This document shows positions 727 to 23,854 of a stretch of 64,000 nucleotides of DNA, in pieces. The DNA lies in assembly GCA_000378025.1 (NCBI GenBank), contig KB899087.1:3968001-4032000 (forward strand), given 5' to 3'. The notes beneath the pieces were generated by a model. That model made no database searches. It saw only the letters and a program-made list of their open reading frames with translations, and was not told where the DNA came from. The DNA comes from Xanthobacteraceae bacterium 501b (GTDB lineage Bacteria > Pseudomonadota > Alphaproteobacteria > Rhizobiales > Xanthobacteraceae). Position 1 is the stretch's first letter; each line of letters opens with the position of its first letter. The translations under genes were made by a program, and so were the position numbers.

Positions 727-754
727 CGACCCCCGAGCAGAGGACGTGACAGGA

Positions 755-1000
755 ATGCCCGAGACCACCAGTCCCCAGCTTCTGCACCTCGTCTTCGGCG
801 GCGAGCTGGAGAAGATCGACGGCGTCACCTTCAAGGATCTCGACGCGCTCGACGTCGTCGGCGTGTTTCCGAACTACGCCACCGCCCACGCCGCCTGGAA
901 GGCGAAGGCGCAGCAGACGGTCGACCAGGCGCAGACGCGCTATTTCATCGTGCACCTCCATCGCCTGCTGGACCCGGAAGCCAGCGCGAAGACCAGCTGA
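755..1000 (+). CDS. DUF4170 domain protein
   Basis: Small acidic 81-residue protein matching the DUF4170 family, which has no assigned function. The body reads LLHLVFGGELEKIDG, then a segment GVFPNYATAHAAWKAKAQQTVDQA and an ending YFIVHLHRLLDP. There is no signal peptide or membrane segment. The ATG at 755 is chosen because the family starts here; an in-frame extension upstream would run into the preceding gene. It lies 28 nt after the CysQ-like gene and 15 nt before the acyltransferase, so co-transcription is likely. Confidence 0.85.
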   Translation: MPETTSPQLLHLVFGGELEKIDGVTFKDLDALDVVGVFPNYATAHAAWKAKAQQTVDQAQTRYFIVHLHRLLDPEASAKTS

Positions 1001-1015
1001 CCGCCGGCTTCCCGC

Positions 1016-1798
1016 ATGTGGCGTCGACTGCGCACCTCACCGACGGTCCGCACCGTTCTCGGGCGCGGCATGGCGTCCTATCTCCGGCTGGTCTGGCGCA
1101 CCCAGCGCGTGGTGATGGAGCCGGCCAATCTCTATGAGCTGGCTGACGCCCAGCTGCCGATGATCCTCACCTTCTGGCACGGCCAGCATTTCCTCACCCC
1201 CTTCCTGGTGCGGCCCTATCACCGCGCCAAGGTGATGATCTCGCGCAGCGCCGATGCCGATGTGAACGCTATCGCCGCCGAAGCGCTCGGCATCGGGGCA
1301 GTGCGCGGCTCGGGCGCGCAGGGGCGCGATTTCCGCACCAAGGGCGGGTTCAACGCCACGCTGGAGATGATCCGCCATCTGGCTGAGGGCACCAATGTGG
1401 CGATGACGGCGGACGTGCCGAAGATCTCGCGCATCGCCGGCCTCGGCGTCGTCACCATCGCCAAGCATTCGGGCCGGCCGATCTACCCGGTCGCCATCGC
1501 CACCTCGCGGCGCATCCTCGCCCGTTCCTGGGACAAGTCGGCCATTCACCTGCCCTTCGGCCGCGCCGCCGTGGTCGCCGGCGACGGGGTGATCGTGGCG
1601 GCCGATGCCGGGCCGGCAGAGCTGGAAGCGGCACGGCGCGAGGTGCAGCGCCAGCTGGAGGTCGCCACCGCCCGCGCCGAGGAACTGGTCGGCCGGCCGG
1701 AGGAGGCAAAGGCGCTCGCCCGCAAGCGTGCCGCCGAGGCCGCGGCCACCGCGACGAAGGCTGGGAATACCGCGCCCGCCACCTCCCGCAACGGCTAG
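1016..1798 (+). CDS. Lysophospholipid acyltransferase-like protein (DUF374 type)
   Basis: 260 residues. The segments TFWHGQHFLTPF (about residues 50-61) and AMTADVPKISRIAGLGVVTI (about 131-150) are the conserved blocks of DUF374 / LPLAT-like acyltransferases. Position directly before waaA and lpxK points to acylation in the lipid A/Kdo pathway at the inner membrane, but the acyl acceptor is unproven. The alanine-rich, Ala/Lys/Arg tail (last 40 residues) looks low-complexity. The stop is 6 nt before the waaA start, so the two are almost certainly one transcription unit. Confidence 0.85.
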   Translation: MWRRLRTSPTVRTVLGRGMASYLRLVWRTQRVVMEPANLYELADAQLPMILTFWHGQHFLTPFLVRPYHRAKVMISRSADADVNAIAAEALGIGAVRGSGAQGRDFRTKGGFNATLEMIRHLAEGTNVAMTADVPKISRIAGLGVVTIAKHSGRPIYPVAIATSRRILARSWDKSAIHLPFGRAAVVAGDGVIVAADAGPAELEAARREVQRQLEVATARAEELVGRPEEAKALARKRAAEAAATATKAGNTAPATSRNG

Positions 1799-1804
1799 CG
1801 CGCC

Positions 1805-3100
1805 ATGGCTCGCGCCCGCTCCCCCCTTCTCGTGCGCCTCTACCGGATGGCGACCTGGCTGGCGACGCCCTTTGTCGGCCTTTTGCTGGCGCGTCGGCTG
1901 AGGCGCGGCAAGGAGGACGGCACGCGGCTCACCGAGCGCTATGGCCGGGCCAGCGCGCCGCGCCCGCGCGGGCCGCTGGTGTGGGTGCATGGCGCCAGCG
2001 TCGGCGAGATGATCGCGGTGCTGCCGCTGATCGAGCGGCTGCGCGCGCGTGGCTTTCGCGTGCTGTTCACGTCCGGAACGCTGACCTCGGCGCGGCTCGC
2101 CCAGGCGCGGCTGCCGCCCGATGTGCCGCACCAATTCGTGCCGCTGGATTCGCCGCTCTTCCTGCGCCGCTTCCTCAAGCACTGGCGGCCGGACCTCGTC
2201 CTCCTGGTGGAATCCGAATTGTGGCCGAACCTCATCCTGGAGGTGAACGCCCGGTCGACGCCGCTGGTGCTGGTCAATGCGCGGATGTCGCCCTCCTCCT
2301 TCGCCAATTGGCGGCGTGTTCATGGCAGCGTGTCGGCGCTGCTGGCGCGGGTCGATCTGTGCCTGGCGCAGGGGGCGGAGGATGGCGAGCGGCTGCGCCA
2401 GCTCGGCGCGCCGCGCGTCACTGTGACCGGCAACCTCAAATTCGACGCCCCCCCTCCGCCGGTCGACATCGCCGCCTTCGACGCGCTGCGGCTGGCGACG
2501 GCGGGGCGGGTGGTGTTCGTCGCCGCCTCCACCCATGCGGGGGAGGAGGAAATCGTCATCGAGGCGCATCAGCGGCTCGTCAAGGAACTGCCGAATCTGC
2601 TCACCGTCATCGCCCCGCGCCATCCCGAGCGCGGCACAGCGGTGGTGCAGCTGGCGACGGCGGCGGGCTGCCCGGCGGTGCTGCGCAGCGACGGCTACCG
2701 GCCCGACAAGGGCACCGCCATCTATGTCGCCGACACGATCGGCGAACTCGGCCTATTCTACCGCCTCGGCCCGGTGGCGCTGCTCGGCGGCTCGCTGGTG
2801 CGCAAGGGCGGGCAGAACCCGATCGAGCCGATCAAGCTCGACACCGCGATCCTGCACGGGCCGCATGTGACCAATTTCAACGCGCTCTATGCCCGGCTCG
2901 ACGAGGCCGGCGGCGCGGCGCTGGCAACCGATGGTCGCTCGCTGGCGGCCGCCATCTACATGCTGCTCGCCGACGGCGCCTCGCGGCAGAAGATGGTCGC
3001 GGCGGCGCAGGTCACGGTGGAGAGCTTCGGCGGCGCGCTGGAGCGCACGCTGGGCGCCATCGATCCCTATCTGGTACAGATCCAGCTGGAGAGGCATTGA
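1805..3100 (+). CDS. waaA: 3-deoxy-D-manno-octulosonic acid (Kdo) transferase
   Basis: GT30 glycosyltransferase that adds Kdo from CMP-Kdo to lipid IVA on the cytoplasmic face of the inner membrane. 431 residues, normal for the family. An N-terminal hydrophobic anchor (LYRMATWLATPFVGLLLA) is followed by VWVHGASVGE (about 58-67), whose Glu is the catalytic base in the family. VESELWPNLILEVNARS and a C-terminal donor-site block LVRKGGQNPIEPIKLDTAIL follow. lpxK starts 5 nt downstream. Confidence 0.95.
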   Translation: MARARSPLLVRLYRMATWLATPFVGLLLARRLRRGKEDGTRLTERYGRASAPRPRGPLVWVHGASVGEMIAVLPLIERLRARGFRVLFTSGTLTSARLAQARLPPDVPHQFVPLDSPLFLRRFLKHWRPDLVLLVESELWPNLILEVNARSTPLVLVNARMSPSSFANWRRVHGSVSALLARVDLCLAQGAEDGERLRQLGAPRVTVTGNLKFDAPPPPVDIAAFDALRLATAGRVVFVAASTHAGEEEIVIEAHQRLVKELPNLLTVIAPRHPERGTAVVQLATAAGCPAVLRSDGYRPDKGTAIYVADTIGELGLFYRLGPVALLGGSLVRKGGQNPIEPIKLDTAILHGPHVTNFNALYARLDEAGGAALATDGRSLAAAIYMLLADGASRQKMVAAAQVTVESFGGALERTLGAIDPYLVQIQLERH

Positions 3101-3105
3101 ATTTC

Positions 3106-4125
3106 ATGCGGGCACCCGCTTTCTGGTGGCGTCGGGAACGCGGGCGGCTGGCACAGCTGCTGGCGCCGCTCGGCGCGCTGGTGGGCGGGGCGACGCTGGC
3201 CCGCCTGCGCCGACCCGGCATGGGCGTCGGCGTTCCGGTGATCTGCGTCGGCAACCCGACCGTGGGCGGGGCCGGCAAGACGCCGACCGTGATCGAGATC
3301 GCCCGCCGGCTCACCCTGCGCGGCCACAAGCCGGCGGTGCTCACCCGCGGCTATGGCGGCCGGCTGAAGGGCCCGGTGCGGGTCGACCCGCTGCTGCACG
3401 GCGCTGACGAGGTGGGCGACGAGCCCCTGCTGCTGGCCCGCAGCGCCCCCACCTTCGTCGCCCGCGACCGGCTGGCCGGCGCCCAGGCGGCGGCGCAGGC
3501 GGGGGCGGACGTGCTGATCATGGATGACGGCTTCCAGAGCCCGGCGCTGGCGAAGTCGCTGTCGATCCTCGTCATCGACGCCGGGGTCGGCATCGGCAAC
3601 GGGCTTTGCCTGCCGGCGGGCCCCCTGCGCGCACCGCTCGCCCCGCAGCTGGAACGGGCGCAGGCGCTGCTCGTCATCGGCGAGGGCGCGCCCGGCGAGC
3701 GCGCGGCCCGCGAGGGCTATGCCGCCGGCATCGTGGTGCTGCGCGGCAGGCTGGCGCCGGAGGCGCAGGCGGTGGCGCGGCTGTTCGGCAAGCGCGTTCT
3801 CGCCTATGCCGGCATCGGCCGGCCGGCCAAGTTCTTCGAGACGCTGCGCACGCTCGGCGTGCTGCCTGTCGTGACGCGGGCCTTTCCCGATCACCACGTC
3901 TACACCGCCTCCGACGTGCAGGAGCTGCGCGCCCAGGCCGAGGCGATGGATCTCCTGCTCGTCACCACCGAGAAGGACGCCATGCGCCTCGCCGGCAGCG
4001 AGATCGGCCAGCATCTGATCGAGGTGTCCGACGTGCTGCCGGTGCGGATGGCGCTGGAGCCGCAAAGCGCCAAGGCGCTGGAGCGCATGCTGGGCGGGCT
4101 GGAAGCCGGCCCGCGCGAGCATTAG
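3106..4125 (+). CDS. lpxK: Tetraacyldisaccharide 4'-kinase
   Basis: Phosphorylates the 4' position of the lipid A disaccharide to give lipid IVA, the acceptor of WaaA. 339 residues. The P-loop is GNPTVGGAGKTP (about residues 49-60), followed by LTRGYGG and DVLIMDDGFQSPAL, all diagnostic of LpxK. The ATG at 3106, 5 nt after waaA, is chosen; the open frame extends far upstream but overlaps waaA. Having lpxK after waaA means two consecutive lipid A steps are made from one message. Confidence 0.95.
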   Translation: MRAPAFWWRRERGRLAQLLAPLGALVGGATLARLRRPGMGVGVPVICVGNPTVGGAGKTPTVIEIARRLTLRGHKPAVLTRGYGGRLKGPVRVDPLLHGADEVGDEPLLLARSAPTFVARDRLAGAQAAAQAGADVLIMDDGFQSPALAKSLSILVIDAGVGIGNGLCLPAGPLRAPLAPQLERAQALLVIGEGAPGERAAREGYAAGIVVLRGRLAPEAQAVARLFGKRVLAYAGIGRPAKFFETLRTLGVLPVVTRAFPDHHVYTASDVQELRAQAEAMDLLLVTTEKDAMRLAGSEIGQHLIEVSDVLPVRMALEPQSAKALERMLGGLEAGPREH

Positions 4126-4142
4126 GCCGTTCCGGCCTTGTG
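4124..4142. terminator. Weak hairpin between convergent lpxK and DUF2093 gene
   Basis: A 6-bp inverted repeat (AGGCCG / CGGCCT) with a 3-nt loop begins inside the lpxK stop region and lies in the 17-nt gap between convergent genes. There is only a short T stretch, so terminator function is a guess from position. Confidence 0.35.
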
Positions 4143-4367
4143 TCAGCCCGGCTTGAGCCGGTCCGGATAGAGCCGCGCCAGCACCGCTTCCGGCGTGGCA
4201 TAGGCTTCCTGCAGGTCCACGCTCCAATAGCGCAGCTCGTCGAGCGGAATGGCTTCGCCGGTCACGGCGCAGCGCACGAAAGTGCCCGGACGCACGACCC
4301 GGAAGTCGCCGTCGAGATAACGCACTTCGGCTTCACCCGAGGCGGAGAATCGTTCGAAGCGGTTCAT
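4143..4367 (-). CDS. DUF2093 domain protein
   Basis: 74 residues matching DUF2093, a short alphaproteobacterial family of unknown function. The core reads AEVRYLDGDFRVVRPGTFVRCAVTGE with a C-terminal LRYWSVDLQEAY block. The ATG at 4367 (MNRFERF) is chosen over two upstream in-frame starts (4379, 4442) because it fits the family N-terminus. It faces lpxK and lies 96 nt downstream of xseA on the same strand. Confidence 0.8.
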   Translation of the reverse strand: MNRFERFSASGEAEVRYLDGDFRVVRPGTFVRCAVTGEAIPLDELRYWSVDLQEAYATPEAVLARLYPDRLKPG

Positions 4368-4463
4368 GGTCCCGCTCATCCTGTCGGTTCGGTTGCCGCG
4401 ACAATAAAGACCCGGCCGGGGGTCCGGCAAGCCCGTTGCCACTACGTATCGGCGGTGCGGCCC

Positions 4464-6077
4464 TCAGCTGTCAAACAAGGTGGGCTGGCGGGGCTGCTCC
4501 GGCAAGGGGGCCGGGCGCGCCTTCGCCGGCTTGCGCGCCGGGCGGGAAGGCGAGGGCGGCGCGTCAGGGGCGCTGGCTGTCGCCTGCACCGCCACGCGGC
4601 CGTCGCGGAACTCGATCTCCAGCGCGTCGCCCGCCTTTATGCCGGCCGCCGCGTGCACCGGCGCACCGGAGCCGGCGCGCACCAGCGCGAATCCCCGCGC
4701 GAGCACCCCCTTATAGGACAGCGCCGTCAACAGCTTGGCGACGCCATCGAGCCGGCGGGCACGTTCCAGCGCCTGCTGGCGCTGGCAGCGCTGCAGCCGC
4801 GTGCGCAGATTTTCCAGCCGCTCGCGGCCGCGGTCGCGACGGTCGCGCTGGGACTGCGCGATCAGGCGCAGCCGCGATTCGGCGCGGGTGAGGTGCAGCC
4901 GGTGGCCGGCGGTGGTCGCGCTCAGCCCGCGCGGCAGCCGGGCGGCCACGACGGCAACCCGCTCGCGCCGCCGGGCAAGGGCGGTGGTGAGAGTCGACGG
5001 CGTGAGGCGGCTCTCGGCGCGGGTGAGCCGCAGGCGGTGGGCGCCGGCATTGGCCTTCAGCGCCCTCGGCAGGCGCTGGCCGGCAATGTCGAGGCGCTGG
5101 CGCGGCACGGCGAGCACCGCATCGGCGCTCGGCAGCAGCCGGGCGAGCCCGCGCAGGTCGCTCCGGCGCCGCTCCAGCCCGCGAGCGAAACTGGCACGCA
5201 GCCTTGCGTGCAGCTGCGCCACCTCGGCGACGAGATCGGCCCGCACCGGTACCGCCATCTCAGCCGCCGCCGTCGGGGTGGGCGCGCGCAGATCGGCGGC
5301 GAAGTCGATCAGCGTCACGTCGGTCTCATGGCCGACGGCGGAGATCAGCGGGATGGCGCTGTCGGCCGCCGCCCGCACCACGCTCTCCTCGGAAAAGCCG
5401 AGCAGGTCTTCCAGCGAGCCGCCACCGCGCGCGACGATGATGACATCGGGACGGGGAATCGGCCCGCCGGGGGCGAGCGCGTTGAAGCCGCGAATGGCCG
5501 CGCTCACCTCGGCGCCGCACGTATCCCCCTGCACCCGCACCGGCCACACCAGCACATGGCGGGGAAACCGATCGTTCAGCCGGTGCAGAATGTCGCGGAT
5601 CACCGCCCCGGTCGGCGAGGTGACGACGCCGATGACACGGGGCAGGAAAGGCGGGCGCCGCTTGCGCTCGGCCGCGAACAGGCCTTCGGCGGCGAGGCGG
5701 TTCTTGCGCTCCTCCAGCATCGCCATGATGGCGCCGGCGCCGGCGAATTCCAGCTGCTCGATGACGATCTGGTAGGAGGACTTGCCGGGAAAGGTGGTGA
5801 TGCGCCCGATGGCGACCACTTCCAGCCCTTCCTCGGGCTTGATCCGCAGCCGGCCGAACACGCCCTTCCACACCACGGCGTCGAGCCGGGCATTGCTGTC
5901 CTTCAGGCTGAAATAGGCGTGCCCCGACGAGTGCGGCCCGCGATAGCCCGAGATTTCCCCGCGCACGCGCACATGGCCGAAGGAATCCTCCACCGTGCGC
6001 TTGAGCGCGCCGGAAAGTTCCGAGACGGTCCAGTCGGGGGCGTTGGAGACAGGCGATTCGTCGAGCGTGTCGGGCAT
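4464..6077 (-). CDS. xseA: Exodeoxyribonuclease VII large subunit
   Basis: Large subunit of the single-strand-specific exonuclease VII (partner XseB is not in this window). 537 residues. An N-terminal OB-fold ([32 protein letters not shown], about 36-75) is followed by the catalytic domain with [37 protein letters not shown] and [21 protein letters not shown] long Arg/Leu-rich coiled coil follows. The C-terminus is a Pro/Ala/Lys linker ending QPTLFDS, which resembles a beta-clamp-binding QxxLF motif (see findings). Confidence 0.95.
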
Positions 6078-6124
6078 GGGGAAGTGATAGTCGGATTCGT
6101 TCCGGGCGGGAACGGGGCGGCGGG

Positions 6125-6600
6125 GGCGTCAGATGACGTTAGTCCCGGTACACTTCTCGCTTCAACAACAATAGGTCTGGCGAATCTCTATTTTACGTAT
6201 CAGAGTGATAAACTTACGTCGGCCGGTATGGCGTTGTGGCGGAGCATCAGATGATAGATATCGAAAAGCTGTTCGATCAGGCTATGTTCGAGGTATATCG
6301 CCGTGCCAAGATCGAGGCTGGGTACAATGCAACTATTTTCCTTCAAATGCTCACCGATAATGGCGGTCTTCGTACCGCAAAAACTCTGATTAACTCGCCC
6401 AAACCTTCAGATGGCTACACCGCACTCCATCTGCGAGGCCGGCTGGACCTCACGGTTGAGGCAGTCGTGATTGAGGATGAACGGTGGCATTCACTGTTCG
6501 ATGATAGCGAACTGGCGCGCGCCCGGAAGCGTTTGCATGACTTTCAGTACAAGCCCCGTGCTCGTTCAAACCCAGATTAGGGTACGGCTGATGCGTTGCC
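6125..6600. other. Low-GC patch between xseA and glyQ
   Basis: Base composition drops sharply between two GC-rich genes. By hand count the lines 6181-6240 and 6301-6360 are each 28/60 GC (47%), against about 66% in nearby coding DNA. It contains one small gene (6251-6580). No terminal repeats, integrase or transposase were seen. Confidence 0.6.
6251..6580 (+). CDS. Orphan small hypothetical protein, low GC
   Basis: 109 residues, no signal peptide or membrane helix; mostly predicted-helical and soluble. The ATG at 6251 is chosen because GGAG lies 7 nt upstream; an in-frame GTG at 6236 has no such site. The C-terminal half (HLRGRLDLTVEAVVIEDE, then LFDDSELARARKRLHDF) looks like a widespread uncharacterised bacterial family that I recall from accessory regions, but I cannot name a function. 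Codons such as ata, gta, cga and aaa are used much more than in its neighbours, which suggests recent transfer. It lies alone between xseA (divergent) and glyQ. Confidence 0.65.
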   Translation: MIDIEKLFDQAMFEVYRRAKIEAGYNATIFLQMLTDNGGLRTAKTLINSPKPSDGYTALHLRGRLDLTVEAVVIEDERWHSLFDDSELARARKRLHDFQYKPRARSNPD

Positions 6601-6668
6601 GAGCTTGATCGTATGTCTTGCCCGGCCTAGGTTGCGCCGCCTTTTCAAGCCAACCGCCGGCTCATTCC

Positions 6669-7613
6669 ATGATCGATCCCGCCCTGCCGCCGCATATGCG
6701 CCCCGACAACTCGTTCCAGGGGCTCATCCTCGCGCTCCATGCCTTCTGGGCGGACAAGGGCTGCGTGGTGCTGCAGCCCTACGACATGGAAGTCGGCGCC
6801 GGCACTTTCCACCCCGCCACGACGCTGCGCGCGCTCGGGCCGCTGCCGTGGAAGGCGGCCTATGTGCAGCCCTCGCGCCGGCCCAAGGATGGGCGCTACG
6901 GCAAGAACCCGAACCGGCTGCAGCATTATTACCAGTACCAGGTGATCCTGAAGCCCTCGCCCGCCGACCTGCAGGACCTCTACCTCGCCTCGCTGTCGGC
7001 CATCGGCATCGACCTCAACCTGCACGATGTGCGCTTCGTCGAGGACGATTGGGAAAGCCCGACGCTCGGCGCCTGGGGGCTGGGCTGGGAGTGCTGGTGC
7101 GACGGGATGGAAGTCTCGCAGTTCACCTATTTCCAGCAGGTGGCCGGCTTCGAGTGCGCCCCCGTCGCGGGCGAGCTGACCTATGGGCTGGAGCGCCTCG
7201 CCATGTATGTGCAGGGGGTCGAGAACGTCTACGACCTCAATTTCAACGGCCGCGAGGGTGACGAGAAGGTCACCTATGGCGACGTGTTCCTGCAGGCGGA
7301 AGAGGAATATTCCCGGCACAATTTCGAGCATGCCGACACCGACATGCTGTTCGAGCAGTTCCGCATGGCCGAGAGCGCGGCGGCGAAATATCTTGAAGCG
7401 GGCTGGGAAGACGGCACCAAGGCCCGTCACCTGATGGCGCAGCCGGCCTATGACCAGTGCATCAAGGCCAGCCACGTGTTCAACCTGCTGGACGCGCGCG
7501 GGGTGATTTCCGTCACCGAGCGGCAGAGCTACATTCTGCGCGTGCGCGAGCTGGCCAAGGCCTGCGGCGCGGCCTGGCTGGCCACCGCGGCAGGCGGCAC
7601 TCCCGCGCCCTGA
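6669..7613 (+). CDS. glyQ: Glycyl-tRNA synthetase alpha subunit
   Basis: Catalytic subunit of the bacterial alpha2beta2 glycyl-tRNA synthetase, charging tRNA-Gly. 314 residues, typical length. Conserved class II blocks are present: [18 protein letters not shown] near the start, [40 protein letters not shown], and [16 protein letters not shown]. The ATG at 6669 is chosen; in-frame codons upstream extend into the low-GC gap. The partner glyS is 1.4 kb downstream, separated by an MFS transporter gene. Confidence 0.96.
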
Positions 7614-7642
7614 TCCTCTCCAATCCGCCGGGAGCCGCGTCC

Positions 7643-8947
7643 ATGTCCAGCCTCGACGTTGCGTCCTATCCCGATACCGGGCCCGCCGATACAGTGCCGG
7701 CCGGCCCGCGCGCGCTCCTCGCCGGGGCGCTCGGCAATGCGCTGGAATGGTACGATTTCGCCGCCTATGGCTTCCTCGCCGCCATCTTCGCCAAGAACTT
7801 CTTCCCGGACAGCGACGCCTTTGTCGGGCTGATCGCCGCCTTCGGGATTTTCGCCGCCTCCTTCGTCATGCGCCCGGTCGGTGGCATCGTCTTCGGCCAT
7901 ATCGGCGACCGCCATGGCCGGCGGCAGGCGCTGTTCATCTCCGCCGCCACCATGACCGCCTCGACGGTCGCCATCGGCCTGCTGCCGACCTATGCGGCGA
8001 TCGGCGCGGCGGCGCCGCTGCTGCTGCTGGTGCTGCGGCTCTTGCAAGGCCTCTCCATCGGCGGCGAATACACCACCTCGGCCATCTTCCTCGCGGAGAA
8101 CGCGGCCGTGCGCCGGCGCGGGCTCATCGCCTCCTTCGCCGGCTGCGGCGCGTCGGGCGGCACGCTGCTCGGCTCCATGGTGGGGGCCGCCACCGCGACA
8201 TTGATGAGCACGGACGACCTCATCGCCTGGGGCTGGCGCATTCCGTTCCTGCTCGGCGTCCTGCTCGGCGGATTCACCCTTTATCTGCGCGGCTCCTCGC
8301 AGGAGCGGGCGGCGCCCGCGCGGCCGCGCCGCCCCGGCCGGCTGCCGCTGGTGGAGGCCCTGCGCGCGGACGGGCGGGAGATGATCCGCGCGGCGGTGCT
8401 CAACCTCACGCTCGGCGTCAGCTTCTACATGCTGTTCGTCTATCTCACGACCTATATGCAGCAGGTGGACGGGCTCACCGAGCGGCTGTCGCTGCAGATC
8501 AACACCATCAGCATGGTGGTGGTGCTGGGGCTGGCGCCGGTTTTCGCCGCGCTGTCGGACCGAGTGGGGCGCAAGCCGGTGATCTGCGGCGGGCTGATCG
8601 GCTTTGTGCTGTTCTCCTGGCCGCTGTTCCTCCTGCTGGATTCGGGCGATGCCTTCTCTGCCCTCGCCGGCCAGCTCGGCTTCGCCGTGCTGATGGCGGC
8701 CTATGCCGGGCCGATGCCCTGCGTGCTGGTGGAGATGTTCCGCCCCGCCACACGCTGCACCGCGCTCTCGCTCAGCTACAATCTCGCCCTCGGCCTTGCC
8801 GGGGGCACCGCGCCGATGGTGGCGGTGTATCTGGTCAACCGCGAACAGTTCGACATGGGGCCGGCCGCCTATCTCATCGGGGTCGCCGCGCTCTCGCTCA
8901 TTGCCGCGCTGACGATGAAGGAAGGGCGCGGCCGCGCGCTTTCCTGA
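7643..8947 (+). CDS. MFS metabolite:H+ symporter family transporter
   Basis: 434 residues with about 12 hydrophobic segments. GNALEWYDFAAYG near residue 31, the loop motif GHIGDRHGRRQAL after TM2, and LRLLQGLSIGGEYTTSAIFL in TM4-5 mark the MHS (ProP/ShiA/KgtP-like) branch of the major facilitator superfamily. It likely imports a carboxylate or zwitterion with protons; the substrate cannot be told. It starts 29 nt after glyQ and ends 106 nt before glyS, so it is sandwiched between the two subunits of one enzyme. Confidence 0.9.
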   Translation: MSSLDVASYPDTGPADTVPAGPRALLAGALGNALEWYDFAAYGFLAAIFAKNFFPDSDAFVGLIAAFGIFAASFVMRPVGGIVFGHIGDRHGRRQALFISAATMTASTVAIGLLPTYAAIGAAAPLLLLVLRLLQGLSIGGEYTTSAIFLAENAAVRRRGLIASFAGCGASGGTLLGSMVGAATATLMSTDDLIAWGWRIPFLLGVLLGGFTLYLRGSSQERAAPARPRRPGRLPLVEALRADGREMIRAAVLNLTLGVSFYMLFVYLTTYMQQVDGLTERLSLQINTISMVVVLGLAPVFAALSDRVGRKPVICGGLIGFVLFSWPLFLLLDSGDAFSALAGQLGFAVLMAAYAGPMPCVLVEMFRPATRCTALSLSYNLALGLAGGTAPMVAVYLVNREQFDMGPAAYLIGVAALSLIAALTMKEGRGRALS

Positions 8948-9053
8948 ACGTGACGCCTCCCCTCGCGGGGCGCGACGTGCTAGGCGTCCCGCGACCTTCC
9001 CGCAAGGGCGCGCCCCGCACGGTGCCGCCCGCCAGCCGACGTGACGCAGCGCC

Positions 9054-11315
9054 ATGCCCGATCTTCTGCTCGAACTGTTCTGCGAAGAAATCCCCGCCCG
9101 CATGCAGGCCGGCGCGGCGGAAAGCCTGCGCAAGCTCGTCACCGACGCGCTGGTGGAGCGCGGCCTCGTTTATGAGGGCGCCAAGGCGTTCGTCACCCCG
9201 CGCCGGCTGGCGCTGGCGGTGCACGGCCTGCCGGCGCAGCAGCCGGACACGCATGAGGAGCGCAAGGGCCCGCGCGTCGGCGCCCCGCAAGGCGCAATCG
9301 ACGGCTTCCTGAAGGCCGCCGGCCTCGCCTCGATCGACCAGGCCCGCATCGAGAGCGACCCGAGGAAGGGTGAGTTCTATGTCGCCCACCTGCACAAGCA
9401 TGGCCGCGCCACGCCCGAGGTGATCGCCGAGATCATCCCGCAGGTGATCCGCGCCTTCCCCTGGCCGAAATCGATGCGCTGGGGCAAGGGCTCGTCCAGC
9501 CCCACCACGCTGCGCTGGGTACGCCCGCTGCAGTCGATCCTGTGCACCTTCGGCCCCGAGACCGAGGAGCCGGAAGTGGTGGCCTTCGAGGTCGACGGCA
9601 TCCGCTCCGGCGATGTGACGCGCGGCCACCGTTTCCTGTCCGAGGGCACGATCCGCGTGCGCCGGCTGGAAGACTGGATGGCGAAGCTGGAGGCCGCCTT
9701 CGTGGTGGTCGATCGCGAGCGCCGCAAGGACATCATCCTCAACGACGCCAAGGACCTCGCTTTGGCGCAGGGGCTGGAGCTGGTGGAGGATGCCGGCCTG
9801 CTGGAGGAGATTTCCGGGCTGGTGGAATGGCCCGTGGTGCTGATGGGGTCGTTCGACCCGGCCTTTCTCGACGTGCCTGACGAGGTGATCCGCGCCACCA
9901 TCCGCATCAACCAGAAATGCTTCGTGCTGAGGGACCCCACCACGGGGCGCCTCGCCAACAAGTTCGTGCTGGTGTCGAACCTCGCCGCCAGCGATGGCGG
10001 CACCGCGATCATCGCCGGCAATGAGCGCGTCATCCGCGCCCGGCTGTCGGACGCCAAGTTCTTCTGGGAGACCGACCAGAAGACCAACGCCACCGTGCCT
10101 TTGGCCGAGCGGCTGGAGAAATTCGGCAACGTCACCTTCCACGAAAAGCTCGGCTCGCAGCTGGAGCGCATCCGCCGCATCGCCGCGCTGGCGAAGGCGC
10201 TGGCGCCTGTGGTGGGCGCCGACCCGGACCTCACGGAGCAGGCCGCGCTCTACGCCAAGAGCGATCTGCGCACGGAAGTGGTGGGCGAATTCCCTGAGGT
10301 GCAGGGGCTGATGGGCCGCTATTACGCCCGGCTTGAAGGTCTGCCCGAGGAAATCGCCGCCGCGGCGGAAGAACACTACAAGCCGCAGGGCCCGACCGAC
10401 ATTGTCCCCACCGCGCCGGTCTCCATCGCCGTGGCGCTGGCCGACAAGCTCGACACGCTGGTCGGCTTCTGGGCCATCGACGAGAAGCCGACGGGGAGCA
10501 AGGACCCCTACGCGCTCCGCCGCGCCGCGCTGGGCGTAATTAGGATTATGTTGGAGAACGAAGTAAGGGGCCGTTTGATAATCCCCGTCGCGAGAACAAT
10601 TGGCATGCATCTGGCTGGAAAGAGATTCAACCAGCTAGCTCAGGCCGATCAGAAAATTAGCGAACTGGAACAGATCAATTTCGATCCTGAAAAAATTCGT
10701 GAGCTGAGGGACGTTATCGCAGATAACGTTCAGCCTAGCTCAGCTCTCGATTTCATCGACATGAGTAAGGATTTGGCTTTTGCTATTGGATCTGACCTTC
10801 TAGCCTTCTTTGCGGGTCGTCTTAAGGTGAGTCTCCGCGAAGCCGGCGCGCGCCATGACCTCGTCGACGCGGTGTTCGCCCTTCCCGGCCAGGACGACCT
10901 TCTCCTCGTGGTGAAGCGCGTCGAAGCCCTTGGCCGTTTCCTCGCCACCGAGGACGGTAAGAACCTGCTCGCCGGCAGCAAGCGCGCGGCGAATATCCTG
11001 CGCATCGAGGAGAAGAAGGACGGCGTCGCCTATGAGGGCGGCGTCGATGTGGTGCTGCTGCACGAGCCGGAGGAACGGGCGCTGGCCGACGCCATCGCCG
11101 CGCTCGGCCCGCAGATCGAACAGGCGCTGGCGCGTGAGGATTTCGAGGCCGCCATGGCGCTGCTCGCCGGGCTGCGCGCCCCGGTGGATGCGTTCTTCGA
11201 GAAGGTGACGGTGAATGCGGAGGACCCGGTGCTGCGGGTCAACCGCCTGCGCCTGCTCGCCGACATCCGCGCCGCCACCCGCTCCATCGCCGATTTCGAC
11301 CGCATCGAGGGGTAG
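9054..11315 (+). CDS. glyS: Glycyl-tRNA synthetase beta subunit (mosaic)
   Basis: tRNA-binding partner of GlyQ. 753 residues, on the long side. The N-terminus [20 protein letters not shown] and internal blocks [30 protein letters not shown] and [10 protein letters not shown] are typical. After ALGV (about residue 498) the DNA becomes low GC until about base 10835 while the frame stays open. The encoded segment carries about 79 residues between LEN and [11 protein letters not shown], where E. coli GlyS has about 30 as I recall it. The protein then resumes with [20 protein letters not shown]. The gene is intact, with no stop or frameshift. Confidence 0.93.
10538..10835. other. Low-GC in-frame segment inside glyS
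   Basis: Hand counts give 26/60, 28/60 and 26/60 GC for lines 10621, 10681 and 10741 (44% overall), against 40/60 at 10441 and 39/60 at 10921. The switch starts within the conserved stretch GVIRIMLEN (codons gta att agg att atg ttg) and ends within [14 protein letters not shown], so conserved codons on both edges have the foreign style. Boundaries are approximate to about 10 nt. Confidence 0.8.
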
Positions 11316-11355
11316 GGGCGCACACGCCCTCACCTGCGGCCCCTGCGCCCCACGC

Positions 11356-11387
11356 CGTCATCCCCGGGCTTGACCCGGGGATCCATG
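11356..11387. repeat. REP-like dispersed inverted repeat
   Basis: Short palindromic element with arms TCCCCGGG and CCCGGGGA around CTTGA, flanked by GTCA and TCCATG. It belongs to the same family as copies near 32848, 32907, 57701 and 57762, a type common in intergenic DNA of Hyphomicrobiales. Confidence 0.75.
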
Positions 11388-11445
11388 GCTTTTCAGCGCA
11401 TTGCCGGCGCCCAAGATCGAAACCAACGCCTGCCGCACCGAGAAC

Positions 11446-11480
11446 CATCCTGAGGCGCGCTGTGCGCGCACCTCAGGATG
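11446..11480. repeat. Large hairpin, CATCCTGAGG type
   Basis: Perfect 10-bp arms (CATCCTGAGG 11446-11455 and CCTCAGGATG 11471-11480), with an inner GCGC pairing. A related but unpaired sequence, GTCATCCTGAGGTGCG, occurs at 32815-32830, which argues for a dispersed repeat family rather than a gene-specific terminator. Confidence 0.65.
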
Positions 11481-11680
11481 ACGTCCCGATGGATGACCGC
11501 GAAGGGGCCACGCTGCCCCACCACACCGGCATCCCCTGGGCGAGGGGAGGTAGAGGGCACGGTCCTGACGGCCATTGGACGAATGACAACGGCCCCGCCC
11601 TGCCCCCGCTTGCGCCGGCGCGGGCGCGGAACCATCCTGCGCGCGGCGGCTTATGTCGCTACCACCCAGCGGAGCGTCCC

Positions 11681-11857
11681 ATGGACATCAACATCATCGC
11701 CATTCAGCCGATCGTCGCGCTGATCGCCGGCATTCTCATCCTCATCATGCCGCGCCTGCTCGCCTATATCGTCGCCATCTATTTGATCTTCATCGGCATT
11801 TCCGGGCTGCTCGGCACCGGTGGGCTGGAGAATATCGGCCAGCGGCTCGGCATCTAA
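11681..11857 (+). CDS. DUF3096 small membrane protein
   Basis: 58 residues that are nearly all hydrophobic: MDINIIAIQPIVALIAGILI then LIMPRLLAYIVAIYLIFIGISG, i.e. two membrane helices with a Pro-Arg turn. This matches DUF3096, a short family of unknown function. The ATG at 11681 gives the family N-terminus; the longer open frame upstream runs through the repeat region and is not credible. It faces the HAD gene across 121 nt. Confidence 0.8.
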   Translation: MDINIIAIQPIVALIAGILILIMPRLLAYIVAIYLIFIGISGLLGTGGLENIGQRLGI

Positions 11858-11978
11858 CCCCAACTTCACGCGCGCCGCCGGGCTGACCGCCGCCGTCCGG
11901 CGTCGCCCGAGCGGACGGGACCGGGCGCCTGTGCCAGCCGCCCGGTCGATTGTTTGTCACGGTTGAGAGAGACGCGCG

Positions 11979-12851
11979 CTAGGCGCGCGGGCCGCGCGGC
12001 AGAACGAATCGGTCGATGGCGTGGGCGACGCCGTCCTCCTCATTGGTGAGGGTGACGAAATGCGCCTGCTCCTTCACCTCCGGCGCGCCATTGCCCATGG
12101 CGATGGCGAGGCCGCCCGTGCTGAACATGGGCAGGTCGTTCGACATGTCGCCGATAACAGCCACCTCGTCGAGCGCCACCCCATAGTGCCGGGCGAAGGC
12201 GCGCACCGCATAGCCCTTGTCGGTGCCGGGCGGCGTCATGTCGAGATATTTGGCCTGCGAGCGCCGCGCCGTGGCGCCCGCGCCCGCCAGCGCCTGCAGC
12301 TCAGGCTCGCTCGCCGCCAGCATGTCGAAATCGGTCGAGGAGAACACGATCTTGCCGGCGCGGGTGATGTGGTCGCCGAAATCCTCCACCACCGTCGGTG
12401 GGAACGCCACGGTGCGGGTCTCCCCGGCGACATAGGTGCTGTCGGGGTCGGTGACGAACCACTCATTGTCGGCGAACACCCAGATCGAGGCGCCGCGCGG
12501 CTTCATCAAGGCGATGCCGGCGCGGGCCGCGTCGGCCGCTACGAAGTGCTCTTCCACCACCGAGAAGTCGCGGCGCAGGATGGAGCCGCCATTGAAGCCG
12601 CCGAACAGATCGACATTCAGCGCCTCGACCATCAGCTTCATGCCGCGCGGCGGGCGGGCCGAGACGGCGGCGAAGGCGATGCCGGCGGCGTGGAGGCGGC
12701 GCACCGCCTCCACCGTGGCCGGCGCCACCTCCTTGGCCTTGTTCACCAGCGTGCCGTCGACATCCGACACCATGAGGCGGATGCGCGAGGAGGGGGCGCT
12801 AGCCGCGCCCCCGCGCTCGTCAATTGCCTCAGCGAGGTTCGATACGCTCAT
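11979..12851 (-). CDS. Cof-type HAD-IIB hydrolase
   Basis: 290-residue sugar-phosphatase-like HAD protein. Motif I is MVSDVDGTLV (about residues 26-35), and the motif IV block is VIGDMSNDLPMFSTGGLAIA near the end, with a C2-type cap between. The ATG at 12851 overlaps the zwf stop by 4 nt, so it is translationally coupled to zwf. The open frame continues to 13052 but only as a shadow of zwf. With gnd and zwf it forms a three-gene unit; it might remove a sugar phosphate related to the pentose phosphate pathway, which is inference from location. Confidence 0.88.
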   Translation of the reverse strand: MSVSNLAEAIDERGGAASAPSSRIRLMVSDVDGTLVNKAKEVAPATVEAVRRLHAAGIAFAAVSARPPRGMKLMVEALNVDLFGGFNGGSILRRDFSVVEEHFVAADAARAGIALMKPRGASIWVFADNEWFVTDPDSTYVAGETRTVAFPPTVVEDFGDHITRAGKIVFSSTDFDMLAASEPELQALAGAGATARRSQAKYLDMTPPGTDKGYAVRAFARHYGVALDEVAVIGDMSNDLPMFSTGGLAIAMGNGAPEVKEQAHFVTLTNEEDGVAHAIDRFVLPRGPRA

Positions 12852-14392
12852 CGCGGGCGATCCCTTTCGAGCGGAAGCCACTGGAAGCCGTCCTGCGCCA
12901 GCATCACGTCCGACATGGCCGGACCGCTGGAACCGGCGGAATAGAACTGCACCTCGTTCTCGCCGCCGCTGACCGCCTCCAGGATCGGCTCCACCGCCTC
13001 CCAGCCGGCCTCGATCGTGTCGGCGCGCTGGAACAGAGTGGGGTCGCCGCACAGGCAGTCATAGATCAGCGTCTCATAGCCAGTGCTGGGCGCCGCCTTG
13101 AAGTAGTCGGCATATTTGAAGCTCATCTCGACATCCGAGAGCTTGACCTTGCGGCCGGGCACCTTGGCGGCGAAGCGCAGCGACACGCCCTCGTCCGGCT
13201 GGACATGGATGACCATCAGGTTCGGCTTCAGCGCCGTGGGCAAATGGCGGAACAGCACGCCCGGCGCCCGCTTGAACTGGATGGCGATCTCGGTGCGCCG
13301 CACCGCCAGCGCCTTGCCGGTGCGGACATAGAACGGCACGCCGTTCCAGCGCCAGGAATCGACGAAGCACTTCAGCGCCACATAGGTCTCGGTGCGGCTG
13401 TCGGGATGCACGTCCTTCTCGTCGCGATAGTCCTTCACCGCCTCGCCATTGACGAAGCCGGCGCGGTACTGGCCGCGCACCGCCGCGCCGATCGCCTCGC
13501 TCGGGCGCATATGGCGGATGGCTTCGATGACCTTGGTCTTTTCCGAGCGCACCGCGTCGGCATCGAAGGAGTTCGGCGGCTCCATCGCGGTCATGGCGAG
13601 CAGCTGGAACATGTGGTTCGGCACCATGTCGCGCAGCGCGCCTGTCGCGTCATAGAAGCCGCCGCGCTGCTCCACCGTCACCGTCTCGGCGGCGGTGATC
13701 TGGACATGGTCGATATATTCCTTGCTCCAGATCGGCTCGAAAATGCCGTTGCCGAAGCGCAGCGCCATCATGTTCTGAACCGTTTCCTTGCCGAGGAAAT
13801 GGTCGATCCGGTAGATCTGGCGCTCGTCGGCCACCGCCAGAAGGCGCCGGTTGAGCGCCTTCGCCGACGGCATGTCGGAGCCGAAGGGCTTTTCCACCAC
13901 GACATGGCGGAAGGCGCCCTCCGCCTCCTTCAGCAGCCCGGCGGCGCCGAGCTGCTCGGAGATGGTGGCGAAGAAGCGCGGCGCCACGGCGAGATAGAAC
14001 ACCGCATTGCCGGTCTGCGCCTTGCGCTGGTCCAGCCGCTCGCGGATGCGCCCATAGGTGGCGGGGTCCTCGAAATCGCCGGAGACGTAGAAGATCCGGC
14101 TGATCAGCCAGCGCCAGGTCTCGCCCTCGGGGTCGACCGAGCCCGGCAGCTCCCGCACCGCGTCGGTGAGGAAGGCGCGATAATCGTCCTCGCTCTGCGC
14201 GACATGGTCGACGCCGACAATGGCGAAGTCGTCGACCAGCACGCCCTCATGGGCGAGGTTGTAGAGCGAGGGCAGCAGCAGGCGCTTGGTGAGATCGCCC
14301 GAGGCACCGAAGATGAAAAAGGTCGAGGCCGGTGCCGGCGCCGTATCGGGCGCCAGCACCTTCTGGCCGAGAACGACGGACTCGCTTCCCAT
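12848..14392 (-). CDS. zwf: Glucose-6-phosphate 1-dehydrogenase
   Basis: Oxidises glucose-6-phosphate to 6-phosphogluconolactone with NADP+/NAD+. 514 residues. The cofactor fingerprint is FGASGDLTKRLLLPSLYNLA (about 29-48), and the active-site signature is YRIDHFLGKETVQNMMALRF with the substrate-binding Asp-His-Lys set. The ATG at 14392 gives MGSESVVLGQK; the frame is open to 14437 but that part overlaps gnd. It starts 16 nt after gnd. Confidence 0.95.
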   Translation of the reverse strand: MGSESVVLGQKVLAPDTAPAPASTFFIFGASGDLTKRLLLPSLYNLAHEGVLVDDFAIVGVDHVAQSEDDYRAFLTDAVRELPGSVDPEGETWRWLISRIFYVSGDFEDPATYGRIRERLDQRKAQTGNAVFYLAVAPRFFATISEQLGAAGLLKEAEGAFRHVVVEKPFGSDMPSAKALNRRLLAVADERQIYRIDHFLGKETVQNMMALRFGNGIFEPIWSKEYIDHVQITAAETVTVEQRGGFYDATGALRDMVPNHMFQLLAMTAMEPPNSFDADAVRSEKTKVIEAIRHMRPSEAIGAAVRGQYRAGFVNGEAVKDYRDEKDVHPDSRTETYVALKCFVDSWRWNGVPFYVRTGKALAVRRTEIAIQFKRAPGVLFRHLPTALKPNLMVIHVQPDEGVSLRFAAKVPGRKVKLSDVEMSFKYADYFKAAPSTGYETLIYDCLCGDPTLFQRADTIEAGWEAVEPILEAVSGGENEVQFYSAGSSGPAMSDVMLAQDGFQWLPLERDRPR

Positions 14393-14408
14393 GGATCGCG
14401 TCCGCCGC

Positions 14409-15389
14409 TTACTTGGACTTGAATTCGGTGTGGCCACCGAACTGGAAGCGCATGGCCGACAGCAGCTTTTCGCCGAAGGTGTGGTCCTGGCGCGAGCGGA
14501 AGCGGGTGTAGAGCGCGGCGGAAAGCACTTCGGCGGACACCGCCTCCTCGATCGCCGCCATCACCGTCCAGCGGCCCTCGCCCGAATCGGCGACTTCGCC
14601 GGGGAAATCGCTCAGCTGTTCGTCCTTGGTCAGGGCGATGGCGGAGAGATCGAGCAGCCAGGAGGAGACCACGCTGCCGCGGCGCCAGACTTCGGAGACA
14701 TCGGCGAGGTCGAGCGTGAAGCGCTCATTCTCGGGCAGGGCGGTCGAATCCTTGTGCCGGAGAATCTCGAAGCCTTCGGCATAGGCCTGCATCAGCCCGT
14801 ATTCGATGCCGTTATGCACCATCTTGACGAAGTGGCCGGAGCCGGCCGGCCCGCAATGCATGTAGCCGCTTTCGACACGCGAATCGCGCCCTTCACGGCC
14901 CGGGGTGCGGGGAATGTCGCCAAGGCCGGGGGCGAGGGCGGCGAAGATCGGGTCGAGCCGGTCGACCGCTTCCTTGGTGCCGCCGATCATCATGCAGTAG
15001 CCGCGCTCCAGGCCCCACACGCCGCCTGAGGTGCCAACGTCGATATAGTGCAGGCCCTTGGGCTCCAGCTCGGCGGCGCGGCGGATGTCGTCCTTGTAGA
15101 AGGTGTTGCCGCCATCGATGATGACATCGCCCGGCGACAGAAGGCCGGCCAGCGTGGCGATGGTGCCCTCGGTCGGCGCGCCGGCCGGCAGCATCACCCA
15201 GATGGCGCGCGGCGCGTCGAGCTTGGCGACGAGATCGCCGAGGTCGGCGGCGGGCCGGTTGCCTTCGCCACCCAGCTCCGTCACGGCGGCCTCGTTGCGG
15301 TCCCACACCACGCAGTCATGTCCCGCCTTGGTGAGACGGCGCGCGATATTGCCACCCATGCGGCCAAGGCCAACGATTCCGAGCTGCAT
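14409..15389 (-). CDS. gnd: 6-phosphogluconate dehydrogenase, short decarboxylating type
   Basis: 326 residues, much shorter than the ~470-residue E. coli Gnd, hence the short GndA/YqeC-type enzyme that I recall as often NAD-preferring. The N-terminal Rossmann motif is [19 protein letters not shown], with [35 protein letters not shown] and a substrate-site [20 protein letters not shown]. It is first in the gnd-zwf-HAD unit, giving two of the three oxidative pentose phosphate steps. A pgl lactonase gene is not present nearby. Confidence 0.93.
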
Positions 15390-15557
15390 CTGCTTTTCTC
15401 CCCGATACGACGCCAGCGCCCGCGAACCCCGCGGCCCGGGCCGGCGCCCGTTGCATTCAAGCCGAATGTCTAGGCCAAGCCTATGCCGACCATGCGACAA
15501 TTGGAACGGGTCGGGTGAGAAAGCGCCGCCATCGACCGGTAACGGCGCGATCACAAC

Positions 15558-17387
15558 TCAGGAAGAGAACTCGGTTTCGTGCTTCAGCACGTCCTCGGCC
15601 TCGGGATTGAGCGGGCGCGCGGGACGCTCGGGAGCGATCAGCGGCTCGGGTTCCAGCGGCAGCGGCCCGCGATCCTCGCCCTCGGCGAGCTGCCGGCGCA
15701 GCCGTTCCAGGTCGCGCTGGCGCACATCGGCCACGGTGGCCTGCGCGGTGGCGGCGTCGATGCCATTGGCGCGCAGGGCGGCTTCACCAAAGGCGAGGGC
15801 CGATTCGAAGGTCTCGCGAATCTCGTAATCCACCCCGCGCCCGCGCAGCGCCACCGCATGGGTCCGGTCGAAGGCCCGCGCGTGCAGGCGCACATCGGGC
15901 ATGTTCTGGCGGATGATCTCGACGATATGGTCGGTGGTCTGGCGCCGGTCGACACAGACGGCGACGACCCGTGCCCGCTCGGCGCCGGCGGCGCGCAGCA
16001 CGTCGAGCCGGGTGCCGTCGCCGTAATAGATGCGGAAGCCGAAGCGGCCGGCGTTCTGGATCATCTCGACATCATTGTCGATGATCGTCACCTCCATCCC
16101 CTGCGCCAGCAGGCATTGCGAGACGATCTGGCCGAAGCGGCCGAAGCCGACGACCAGCACCGAGCCATGGGCGTCGCTGAAATCCTCGCTCGGCAGGGTG
16201 CTGGCGCGGCGATCCAGCCGCCGGGCCAGCTGCTCGCCCAGCAGCGCCACCGGCGGACCAAGCAGCATGGTCATGGCAGCGCAGGCGACCAGCATGTCGG
16301 ACTGGCGCGAATCGATCAGCCCGAGCCCGAGGGCGAGCGGAAACAGCACGAAGGAGAATTCGCCCGCCGGGGTCAGCACCGAGGCGGAGCGCACCGCGTC
16401 AGCCCGCGTGCTGTCGGAAAAGCGGAACACCGCCCACACCGACACCGCCTTCACCAGCGTGACCAGCAAGGTGCCGATGATGAGCAGCGGCGCGTTGGCC
16501 AACACCACCGCCAGGTTCATAGACATGCCCACGCCCATGAAGAACAGCGCGATCAGCAGGCCGCGAAAGGCGTCGATATTGGCTTCCAGCTCGTGGCGGA
16601 AATTCGATTCGGAGAGCATGACACCGGCGAGGAACGCGCCCAGCGCCATCGACATGCCGGCCGCCGCCATCAGCGCCCCGGCCCCCAGCACCACCAGCAG
16701 CGCCGCCGCCGTCATCACCTCGCGGGCGCCGGAACGGGCGAGGATGCGGAACAGCGGGGTGAGCAGATAGCGCCCGGCGCCGACGATCAGCAGCATCGCC
16801 CCGACGATGATCGCCACATGCCTGGCTGAATCGAGGAAGCTGTGCTCCTCATGCGCGCCCTGCCCGAGAAAGGGCAGCAAGGCGAGCAGCGGCACGATCG
16901 CCATGTCCTGGAACAGCAGCACGCCGAAGGCCCGCTGGCCGTAAGGCTGGGCGAGGCCGCCCTTCTCCTCCAGCAGCTGCAGCGCGATCGAGGTGGCCGA
17001 CAGCGCCAGCGCCATGCCGGCCACCAGCGCGCCGCGCCAGTCGAAGCCGTTGGCGGCATAATGGGTCAGCACCGCAATGGCAGCGCCGCTGAACAGAAGC
17101 TGCGCCGTGCCCAGCCCGAAGATCGCCCGCCGCAGCGCCAGCAGCCGCGAGACCTGCAGTTCCAGCCCGATGATGAACAGCAGCAGCACCACGCCGATCT
17201 CGGCGACGGTGATGATCCGCTCGGGATCGTCGAACGCCCCGAGGCCGGAAGGGCCTATGGCCACCCCGGCCAGCAGGTAGCCGACGATGGGCGACAGGCC
17301 GAGCCGGCGCGCCACCGGAACGGCGATGACGGCGGTGGCGAGAAACACCAGCGCCCCCAGCAGCAATCCGTGTCCGTCTTCATGCAT
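15558..17387 (-). CDS. CPA2-family monovalent cation:proton antiporter (KefB/KefC-like)
   Basis: 609 residues. An N-terminal exchanger domain of about 12 membrane segments (VARRLGLSPIVGYLLAGVAI, then LLLFIIGLEL) is followed by a cytosolic TrkA-N/RCK domain with the nucleotide-binding motif VLVVGFGRFGQIVSQCL, IIDNDVEMI and YYGDGTRLDVLRAAG (about 410-470). The C-terminus is a charged Arg/Glu tail. It probably moves K+ or Na+ against H+; glutathione gating as in Kef cannot be judged from sequence. A single-gene unit. Confidence 0.9.
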   Translation of the reverse strand: MHEDGHGLLLGALVFLATAVIAVPVARRLGLSPIVGYLLAGVAIGPSGLGAFDDPERIITVAEIGVVLLLFIIGLELQVSRLLALRRAIFGLGTAQLLFSGAAIAVLTHYAANGFDWRGALVAGMALALSATSIALQLLEEKGGLAQPYGQRAFGVLLFQDMAIVPLLALLPFLGQGAHEEHSFLDSARHVAIIVGAMLLIVGAGRYLLTPLFRILARSGAREVMTAAALLVVLGAGALMAAAGMSMALGAFLAGVMLSESNFRHELEANIDAFRGLLIALFFMGVGMSMNLAVVLANAPLLIIGTLLVTLVKAVSVWAVFRFSDSTRADAVRSASVLTPAGEFSFVLFPLALGLGLIDSRQSDMLVACAAMTMLLGPPVALLGEQLARRLDRRASTLPSEDFSDAHGSVLVVGFGRFGQIVSQCLLAQGMEVTIIDNDVEMIQNAGRFGFRIYYGDGTRLDVLRAAGAERARVVAVCVDRRQTTDHIVEIIRQNMPDVRLHARAFDRTHAVALRGRGVDYEIRETFESALAFGEAALRANGIDAATAQATVADVRQRDLERLRRQLAEGEDRGPLPLEPEPLIAPERPARPLNPEAEDVLKHETEFSS

Positions 17388-17576
17388 GGACCCGCCATCC
17401 TCCGCCCGCTGCCCGGCACCACAGTAGAGGATCGGATGACGCGCGCCGATGGCGGAAGCGTGATGGTGCGGTGAAGAATTCGCGCGGCGGGCGGCAATTG
17501 CGTGAAAACGTGCGTTCCGGAAAAACGCTGGCGGCGCATGCCCTTACGGAAGTCGCGGCGCATGACGCCGACATGG

Positions 17577-17608
17577 AAAGGCCGGCAGCGCCCCGCGGCG
17601 TGCCGGCC
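17577..17608 (-). terminator. Probable terminator of the fds operon
   Basis: Perfect 8-bp arms GGCCGGCA (17580-17587) and TGCCGGCC (17601-17608), followed on the minus strand by TTTCC. It lies about 20 nt past the fdsD stop, where an operon terminator is expected. Confidence 0.6.
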
Positions 17609-17628
17609 CCCTGTTTGAATCGGCCGAA

Positions 17629-23685: not shown

Positions 23686-23770
23686 TTCTCCCGTAGCCTT
23701 CTTTTAGAATTTTCCAAAGGTAAGGATGGTACGCACGGGAAGCGAAATCAATTCAGGTGTTCCGTGCCAC

Positions 23771-23787: not shown

Positions 23788-23854
23788 ATAAGGCTGCGCA
23801 CCCCCTTCCCTAACGTTTTGTTCATCTTTCGCAGGGTTTGTTCCTGTATTGTTC

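Follow-up and report, generated by a model that had tools for sequence, protein, structure and literature searches.

Hypervariable loci in which specificity domains or whole alleles are swapped are known from the target domains of HsdS, from pilin and from polymorphic immunity proteins. The locus described here shares with them a conserved scaffold, an exchangeable variable module, and a high turnover between close relatives. While those loci encode surface, defence or specificity proteins, glyS encodes a single-copy cytosolic enzyme of translation. A different precedent is offered by the Rickettsia palindromic elements, multi-copy repeats inserted in many protein genes, which likewise represent a foreign in-frame segment tolerated in a housekeeping gene. 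Unlike these elements, the cassette in the window (the whole 64-kb stretch of DNA analysed here) is single-copy and belongs to a family seen only in glyS, although six of the slots we compared hold a repeat-like peptide.

Alterations of glyS have also been recorded under phage pressure. A glyS SNP, with a count of 4, is listed among 109 phage-resistant mutants of avian pathogenic Escherichia coli (PMC8711792), and an indel upstream of glyS is reported in phage-coevolved Vibrio alginolyticus (PMC8521149). Unlike the exchange of cassettes, these changes are small, were found in Gammaproteobacteria, are candidate causes at most, and involve no cassette. Because glyS mutations arise under ciprofloxacin too (PMC11016087), slow growth alone may explain the glyS changes in the phage-selected mutants. 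A toxin that acetylates Gly-tRNA exists as well (PMC7470980), with nothing linking it to the slot. We regard the printed leads for a link between glyS and phage as weak.

Aminoacyl-tRNA synthetases are usually treated as conserved housekeeping enzymes. Here we describe a single-copy one, the beta subunit of glycyl-tRNA synthetase (GlyRS), whose predicted helical segment can give way to an unrelated one from one sister species to the next. The best explanation as a whole, which we hold to be probable, is that cassettes are exchanged whole between glyS alleles at a hypervariable slot and that their diversity is kept by an antagonist; the exchange itself is well supported, and the donor, the mechanism and the antagonist are what we infer. 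No description of a hypervariable GlyRS slot was found in the titles and abstract starts of the top-ranked papers listed for searches of the open-access literature, and its novelty is provisional. The presence of unrelated segments in sister species, together with purifying selection on the shared ones, points to an unrecognised conflict around glycine charging, and the 98 or more alternative modules that occur naturally in the slot could serve to find the agent behind it. The slot is also informative on why fast-turnover DNA is AT-rich in GC-rich genomes, since one site can be compared with and without turnover.

The low-GC tract in glyS

The gene glyS lies on the forward strand at 9054-11315 as an open frame with a product of 753 aa. 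Pfam searches place in this product the two domains of a GlyRS beta subunit, tRNA_synt_2f at residues 4-608 (E 9e-178) and the DALR anticodon-binding domain (DALR_1) at 642-739, and glyS has a single match in the 5.1-Mb genome. Upstream on the same strand, the open frame at 6618-7613, read from a TTG and named from its translation, is glyQ, encoding the alpha subunit; its true start is probably downstream of that TTG. In E. coli, glyS is reported to be essential (PMC6242692), and because the gene is single-copy it would be essential in Ancylobacter also.

The segment at 10538-10835 has a GC content of 46.0%, against a mean of 69.0% for the window, and the lowest-GC 180-bp stretch of the entire 64 kb begins at 10616 (43.9%, z = -5.3). 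The count made in the first-pass annotation for 10621-10800 (80/180, or 44% GC) was reproduced exactly, and the frame, as it had stated, is unbroken by the segment, running through all 753 aa without stops. GC3 is 0.47 in the window cassette and 0.90 in the remainder of glyS. Only two other places in the window include 180-bp stretches at or below 50% GC, namely 6116-6440 and 23648-23889, the second apparently surrounding the space that separates two divergent open frames.

The nearest relative is Ancylobacter vacuolatus, of a genus of the Xanthobacteraceae (Hyphomicrobiales), with DNA 94-95% identical on either side of the cassette and a best-segment identity of 96% for strain DSM 1277 (L241). 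By blastn, window positions 391-17612 align with an A. vacuolatus genome (G029) in three collinear blocks at 94-95% identity, interrupted at 6122-6619 and 10561-10793 only. At the first interruption, just before glyQ, A. vacuolatus has 386 bp of other sequence, and the window has low GC over 6116-6440 and a 114-aa open frame at 6236-6580. At the second, 233 bp in the window stand against 35 bp in A. vacuolatus; therefore a cassette of 78 codons (10560-10793, forward strand; residues 503-580, delimited by this alignment and by flank anchors) has replaced a loop of 12 codons, whose place it occupies. The alignment stays in register up to position 10560 and is taken up again at 10794, which bears out the edges proposed earlier; both lie inside conserved helices.

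Comparison of codons shows foreign codons in both conserved edges, on the left in the conserved end of helix H19 (VIRIMLEN; 10536-10559, forward strand) and on the right in the start of the next conserved helix (10794-10832, forward strand). Over the 12 codons to the left of the slot the window has 8 nucleotide differences from A. vacuolatus, and over the 12 codons to the right it has 10; in three species of the window's clade that carry other cassettes, the corresponding left and right figures are 1 and 1 (L002), 2 and 1 (L003), and 8 and 1 (L015). Because L015 equals the 8 differences of the window on the left, the right edge is the clearer evidence of import. The right edge also shows two amino acid changes in the window, D to G (D in 29/29 other Ancylobacter species sampled) and H to S (H in 28/29, Q in one). 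As the foreign codons run into the conserved edges, we place the imported tract at about 10536-10832, very close to the 10538-10835 estimated before. The conserved edge codons came along in this species, as expected from the suggestion that the incoming DNA carried homologous glyS sequence on both sides. The flanks of most cassettes are rich in GC or show no more than a mild drop, and foreign flanks like those of the window are found in few genes.

The beta subunit of E. coli GlyRS has the same domains (PDB 7yse and 7eiv) and is without a cassette, the slot being a 24-residue stretch at 497-520. The HD domain of this subunit is given as residues 341-540 (PMC8464048), and the slot falls within it. 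The alignment between the window and E. coli proteins breaks after window residue 504 and picks up again at 579, so that 74 residues (505-578) stand against the 24 of 7yse (497-520), in agreement with the first estimate of about 50 residues beyond the E. coli length. A model of window residues 334-753 has a mean pLDDT of 91.8, with 71-91 in the blocks of the cassette, and matches 7yse_C (TMq 0.75, E 1.5e-19), the fold of the solved beta subunits being kept with the cassette in place. The cassette is predicted to be helical; as modelled, it forms two helices, of 32 and 15 residues, and roughly half of a third one of 33 residues, which continues into the conserved sequence after the slot. A model of another cassette family (family B, from L021, L027, L098 and L175) is also helical, at middling confidence (pLDDT 71.8), and a structure search with it found nothing in the PDB at a threshold of E 0.001. 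Because Arg481 and Arg482 of the E. coli enzyme, at the opposite end of H19, are reported to touch the tRNA acceptor stem (PMC9908026, PMC8464048), the cassette would face away from that stem.

Turnover of the slot in Ancylobacter and beyond

The whole-genome samples contain one genome per species, and glyS is present in 30/30 genomes of the genus sample. A short loop of related sequence is found in 13/30 Ancylobacter species, while 17/30 have cassettes of 14 kinds, with no link at E < 1e-3 between kinds and with slot lengths of 28-148 residues. On a backbone tree built without the slot, no fewer than 17 changes are needed to account for these states; the window and L002, L003, L014 and L015 form a single clade (100/98) that contains five different slot states. 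The first-pass annotation had reasoned that the same segment, if found in all close relatives, would be ancestral, and it is absent from 29/29 other Ancylobacter species. Sixteen of the 17 Ancylobacter cassettes lie below their gene in GC, and that of L012 lies slightly above.

Matches to glyS were obtained in 145/149 genomes of the family sample, 156/159 of the order sample, and 148/173 of the class sample. From the genus, family, order and class samples and a scan of named records, 294 distinct glyS genes were gathered, mostly from Hyphomicrobiales; loci with a right anchor score below 44 (with the exception of L304, which was kept) and duplicates were left out, L343 and 20 class-level candidates stand outside the set, and L078-L080 end inside glyS and have no slot. 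The slots comprise 99 of less than 30 aa, 36 of 30-39 aa, and 159 of at least 40 aa, counts that are not frequencies, long forms having been deliberately favoured in choosing the genes. The 159 slots of at least 40 residues fall into 98 clusters (E < 1e-3), 79 of which are singletons. Among the 249 genes that are complete at both ends, 214 have at least 15 extra residues over the shortest form at the slot, against 16 at the second most variable position. Close relatives carry modules unrelated to one another in the glyS slot; even among gene pairs whose backbones are at least 95% identical and of which one or both have a long slot, the cassette is common to 5/27.

Some lesser variation was noted elsewhere in the gene. 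Extra stretches of at least 15 residues occur at minor variable sites 345-349, 540-544 and 545-549 (L016 numbering) in 11, 16 and 6 of the 249 genes, and near residues 290-300 a few glyS genes are longer by as much as 30 aa. Contigs of three genera (L078, L079 and L080) end inside glyS soon after the match end at residue 293-296, and the contig of L343 begins with the rest of glyS in one genome with a split gene.

Slots of 33-114 residues are present in 20 candidates from other orders of the class, which were picked for their broken matches; in slots of at least 40 residues from these orders, GC3 is below that of the gene in 13/14 cases, in some of them slightly. The cassette of L334 matches that of L164 (E 1.5e-8), placing one family in two orders of Alphaproteobacteria. 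Cassette families recur across genera with their conserved columns kept. Relatives of the window cassette occupy the same slot in Methylobacterium haplocladii of the Methylobacteriaceae (L248; E 1.1e-10, 31% identity) and in another genus of the window's own family (L185; E 5.1e-9, 28% identity). Both are 78 aa long, match the window cassette over all 78 aa, and are AT-rich cassettes inside GC-rich glyS genes. In family B, with members about 30% identical, 18 columns are invariant.

Composition, selection and descent

Most new cassettes are rich in AT, whereas established cassettes are not. Cassettes that are not shared with the nearest backbone relative have a mean GC3 of 0.59 vs 0.85 for the gene (n = 132), those that are shared have 0.85 vs 0.88 (n = 27), and short slots have 0.77 vs 0.84 (n = 99). 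A GC3 deficit above 0.15 is found in 102/132 unshared cassettes, 1/27 shared cassettes and 22/99 short slots; the difference in deficit between unshared and shared cassettes has p 2e-11, with genes counted as independent of kinship. Either an AT-rich pool or between-strain cassette differences that escape GC-biased gene conversion could explain this AT-richness. By the second route it would be made in place, differing cassettes having no homologous partner for such conversion and fixed ones being drawn to the GC of the host. That GC3 is predicted by sharing with the nearest relative agrees with this account, as does the fact that multi-genus cassette families stay AT-rich though their sampled hosts are mostly GC-rich. 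However, the conserved edges of the window cassette are recoded too, which drift in place explains poorly, and the GC3 of a cassette is only weakly correlated with that of its host (rho 0.35, n = 132), so we hold an origin in place to be a tentative account that may yet be correct. It can explain composition and not swapping, and it is compatible with our main reading, the exchange of whole cassettes with their diversity kept by an antagonist.

Selection was compared in 18 hand-picked and partly overlapping pairs with a cassette in common. In the 15/18 pairs where dS was computable, dN/dS of the cassette ranges over 0.01-0.27, and that of the backbone over 0.03-0.25 in all 18. At the level of sequence these ratios demonstrate purifying selection on shared cassettes, and for cassettes common to relatives they contradict the neutral fast-evolving insert that the first-pass annotation had offered as its alternative. 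They also count against a related idea, that the loop is a neutral landing pad, open to whatever DNA keeps the frame, where stray fragments accumulate and decay afterwards. Such a pad would accommodate the 79 singletons among 98 clusters and the repeat-like peptide in 6/159 slots, but it sits badly with the recurrence of families and their conserved columns across genera and with the confidently predicted helices of the window cassette. Moreover, 76/76 cluster representatives are open where 9.8 would be expected by composition, a comparison biased by the fact that glyS must stay open, and lengths peak at 70-84 aa (30/76 clusters). We consider a landing pad unlikely. Unrelated families have a length near 75 aa in common, without detectable common ancestry. 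A single hidden superfamily was rejected by hhalign: among 13 families of 60-90 aa, 0/78 pairs exceeded 50% probability, an outcome not distinguishable from that of reversed controls.

Recent transfer between sampled species was not seen, cassette identity exceeding backbone identity in 1/154 linked pairs (same cluster, backbone identity below 85%). In family A, the one cassette family compared by trees, the Ancylobacter copy groups with hosts of four other genera (90/89) in the cassette tree. By the AU test vertical descent is not rejected on the 78 columns (p 0.32); on the backbone, the grouping seen in the cassette tree is firmly rejected (p 2e-5). The family A trees therefore depart from the backbone towards transfer, but short of significance.

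The first-pass annotation had favoured a single replacement event, with homologous glyS sequence supplied by a relative of lower GC. Its core holds, in that a segment from outside replaced resident sequence and left the gene intact, and both the foreign codons in the conserved edges and the absence of the segment from the nearest relatives are in its favour. The lower-GC source is another matter, as no such donor of the window cassette was found in the gene set, and the two known relatives of this cassette both reside in GC-rich glyS genes. Nor does one event account for a slot whose content keeps changing throughout the order and outside it, of which the window cassette is one state: 16/29 other Ancylobacter species hold other cassettes there, 15 of them clearly below the gene in GC, and other cassettes fill it in many genes of the order. 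A one-off replacement is accordingly quite improbable.

If cassettes are instead exchanged repeatedly, as we favour, the ancestral Ancylobacter loop was probably of 12 residues, and in various lineages it would have been replaced whole by a cassette. Because the window and a few other genes have foreign flanks as well, the swap may proceed by homologous recombination of one glyS allele with another, with the conserved codons of H19 and those following the slot as anchors. We suggest tentatively that the antagonist keeping this diversity might bind this face of GlyRS, so that selection would favour new cassettes, and that it could be a protein of a phage or mobile element or the toxin of a competitor. 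In the broadest form of the proposal, the GlyRS beta subunit of many Alphaproteobacteria would be an arms-race locus, attacked or hijacked at its HD domain, with glyS-specific helical cassettes of which rare ones win; this we put forward as a conjecture, possible and rather doubtful.

Searches for cassettes outside glyS

A search of 149 genomes, known carriers among them, with family A gave 20 hits, and the 17 strong ones (E 2.5e-17 or better) are all in glyS as judged by coordinates. Two of the three weak hits are not in glyS (E 4e-4 and 0.004), and the third (G128:C8, E 0.008) is the other half of a contig-split glyS, slot included. The window family gave 2/2 hits in the same genomes, in glyS of its two known genomes, with no second copy of the window cassette found in its genome; for the two families together, 20/22 hits are in glyS, every strong one included. 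Family A had no hit at E 0.001 in 297 genomes of the order, and family B had one marginal hit in 297 genomes (E 1.1e-4), in a frame that we take to be an adenylate cyclase; in both of these searches known positives were absent from the genus and family members sampled.

The window cassette was not found at E 0.01 in 72,556 plasmid and 50,697 phage records, and family B was not found in viral contigs. The short-form slot region has matches in 35 plasmid and 14 phage records; the majority of those listed resemble megaplasmids, chromosomes filed in error or host DNA. When viral contigs were searched for the slot region two matched, L238 with an apparently complete glyS and L237 with a fragment. 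In this contig (L236/L237, 1-447; IMGVR_UViG_3300022549_000032), an AT-rich glyS fragment spanning the slot joins GC-rich phage tail genes after RHELVDAV, a junction that may be a chimera, a prophage edge or packaged host DNA and carries little weight.

Known domains were rejected as the source of the cassettes. For 97 slots out of a smaller set of 132 of at least 30 aa, scans of Pfam, PHROGs and NCBIfam at E 0.01 gave matches in 5, 2 and 2 families, one member each, the best being to Lip_prot_lig_C (E 2e-4); the window cassette has no match in Pfam, NCBIfam or PHROGs at this threshold. A structured RNA in the slot was likewise rejected, the one match scoring 17.9 against a family cut-off of 80 bits. 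Six of the 159 slots of at least 40 aa (L093, L136, L176, L204, L206 and L305) have in common an in-frame repeat-like peptide (of the type GLVPAIHA...KKDVDARVKPxHDG), presumably a translated dispersed palindromic repeat.

A selfish element inserting at this site (an intein, a palindromic coding repeat or a homing unit) would suit the precise position in a conserved gene and its recurrence, but it is very improbable, since the 97 cassettes have no match to an intein splicing domain or other element (Pfam, NCBIfam and PHROGs, E 0.01), no repeats bound the window cassette, this cassette lacks both the several copies per genome and the long palindrome across the insert that a palindromic coding repeat would have, and the short loop is replaced rather than interrupted (L001 vs L014). 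Of the inverted pairs seen, only one lies within the window cassette, with 15-nt arms that are 87% complementary, and a 9-nt pair spans its left edge.
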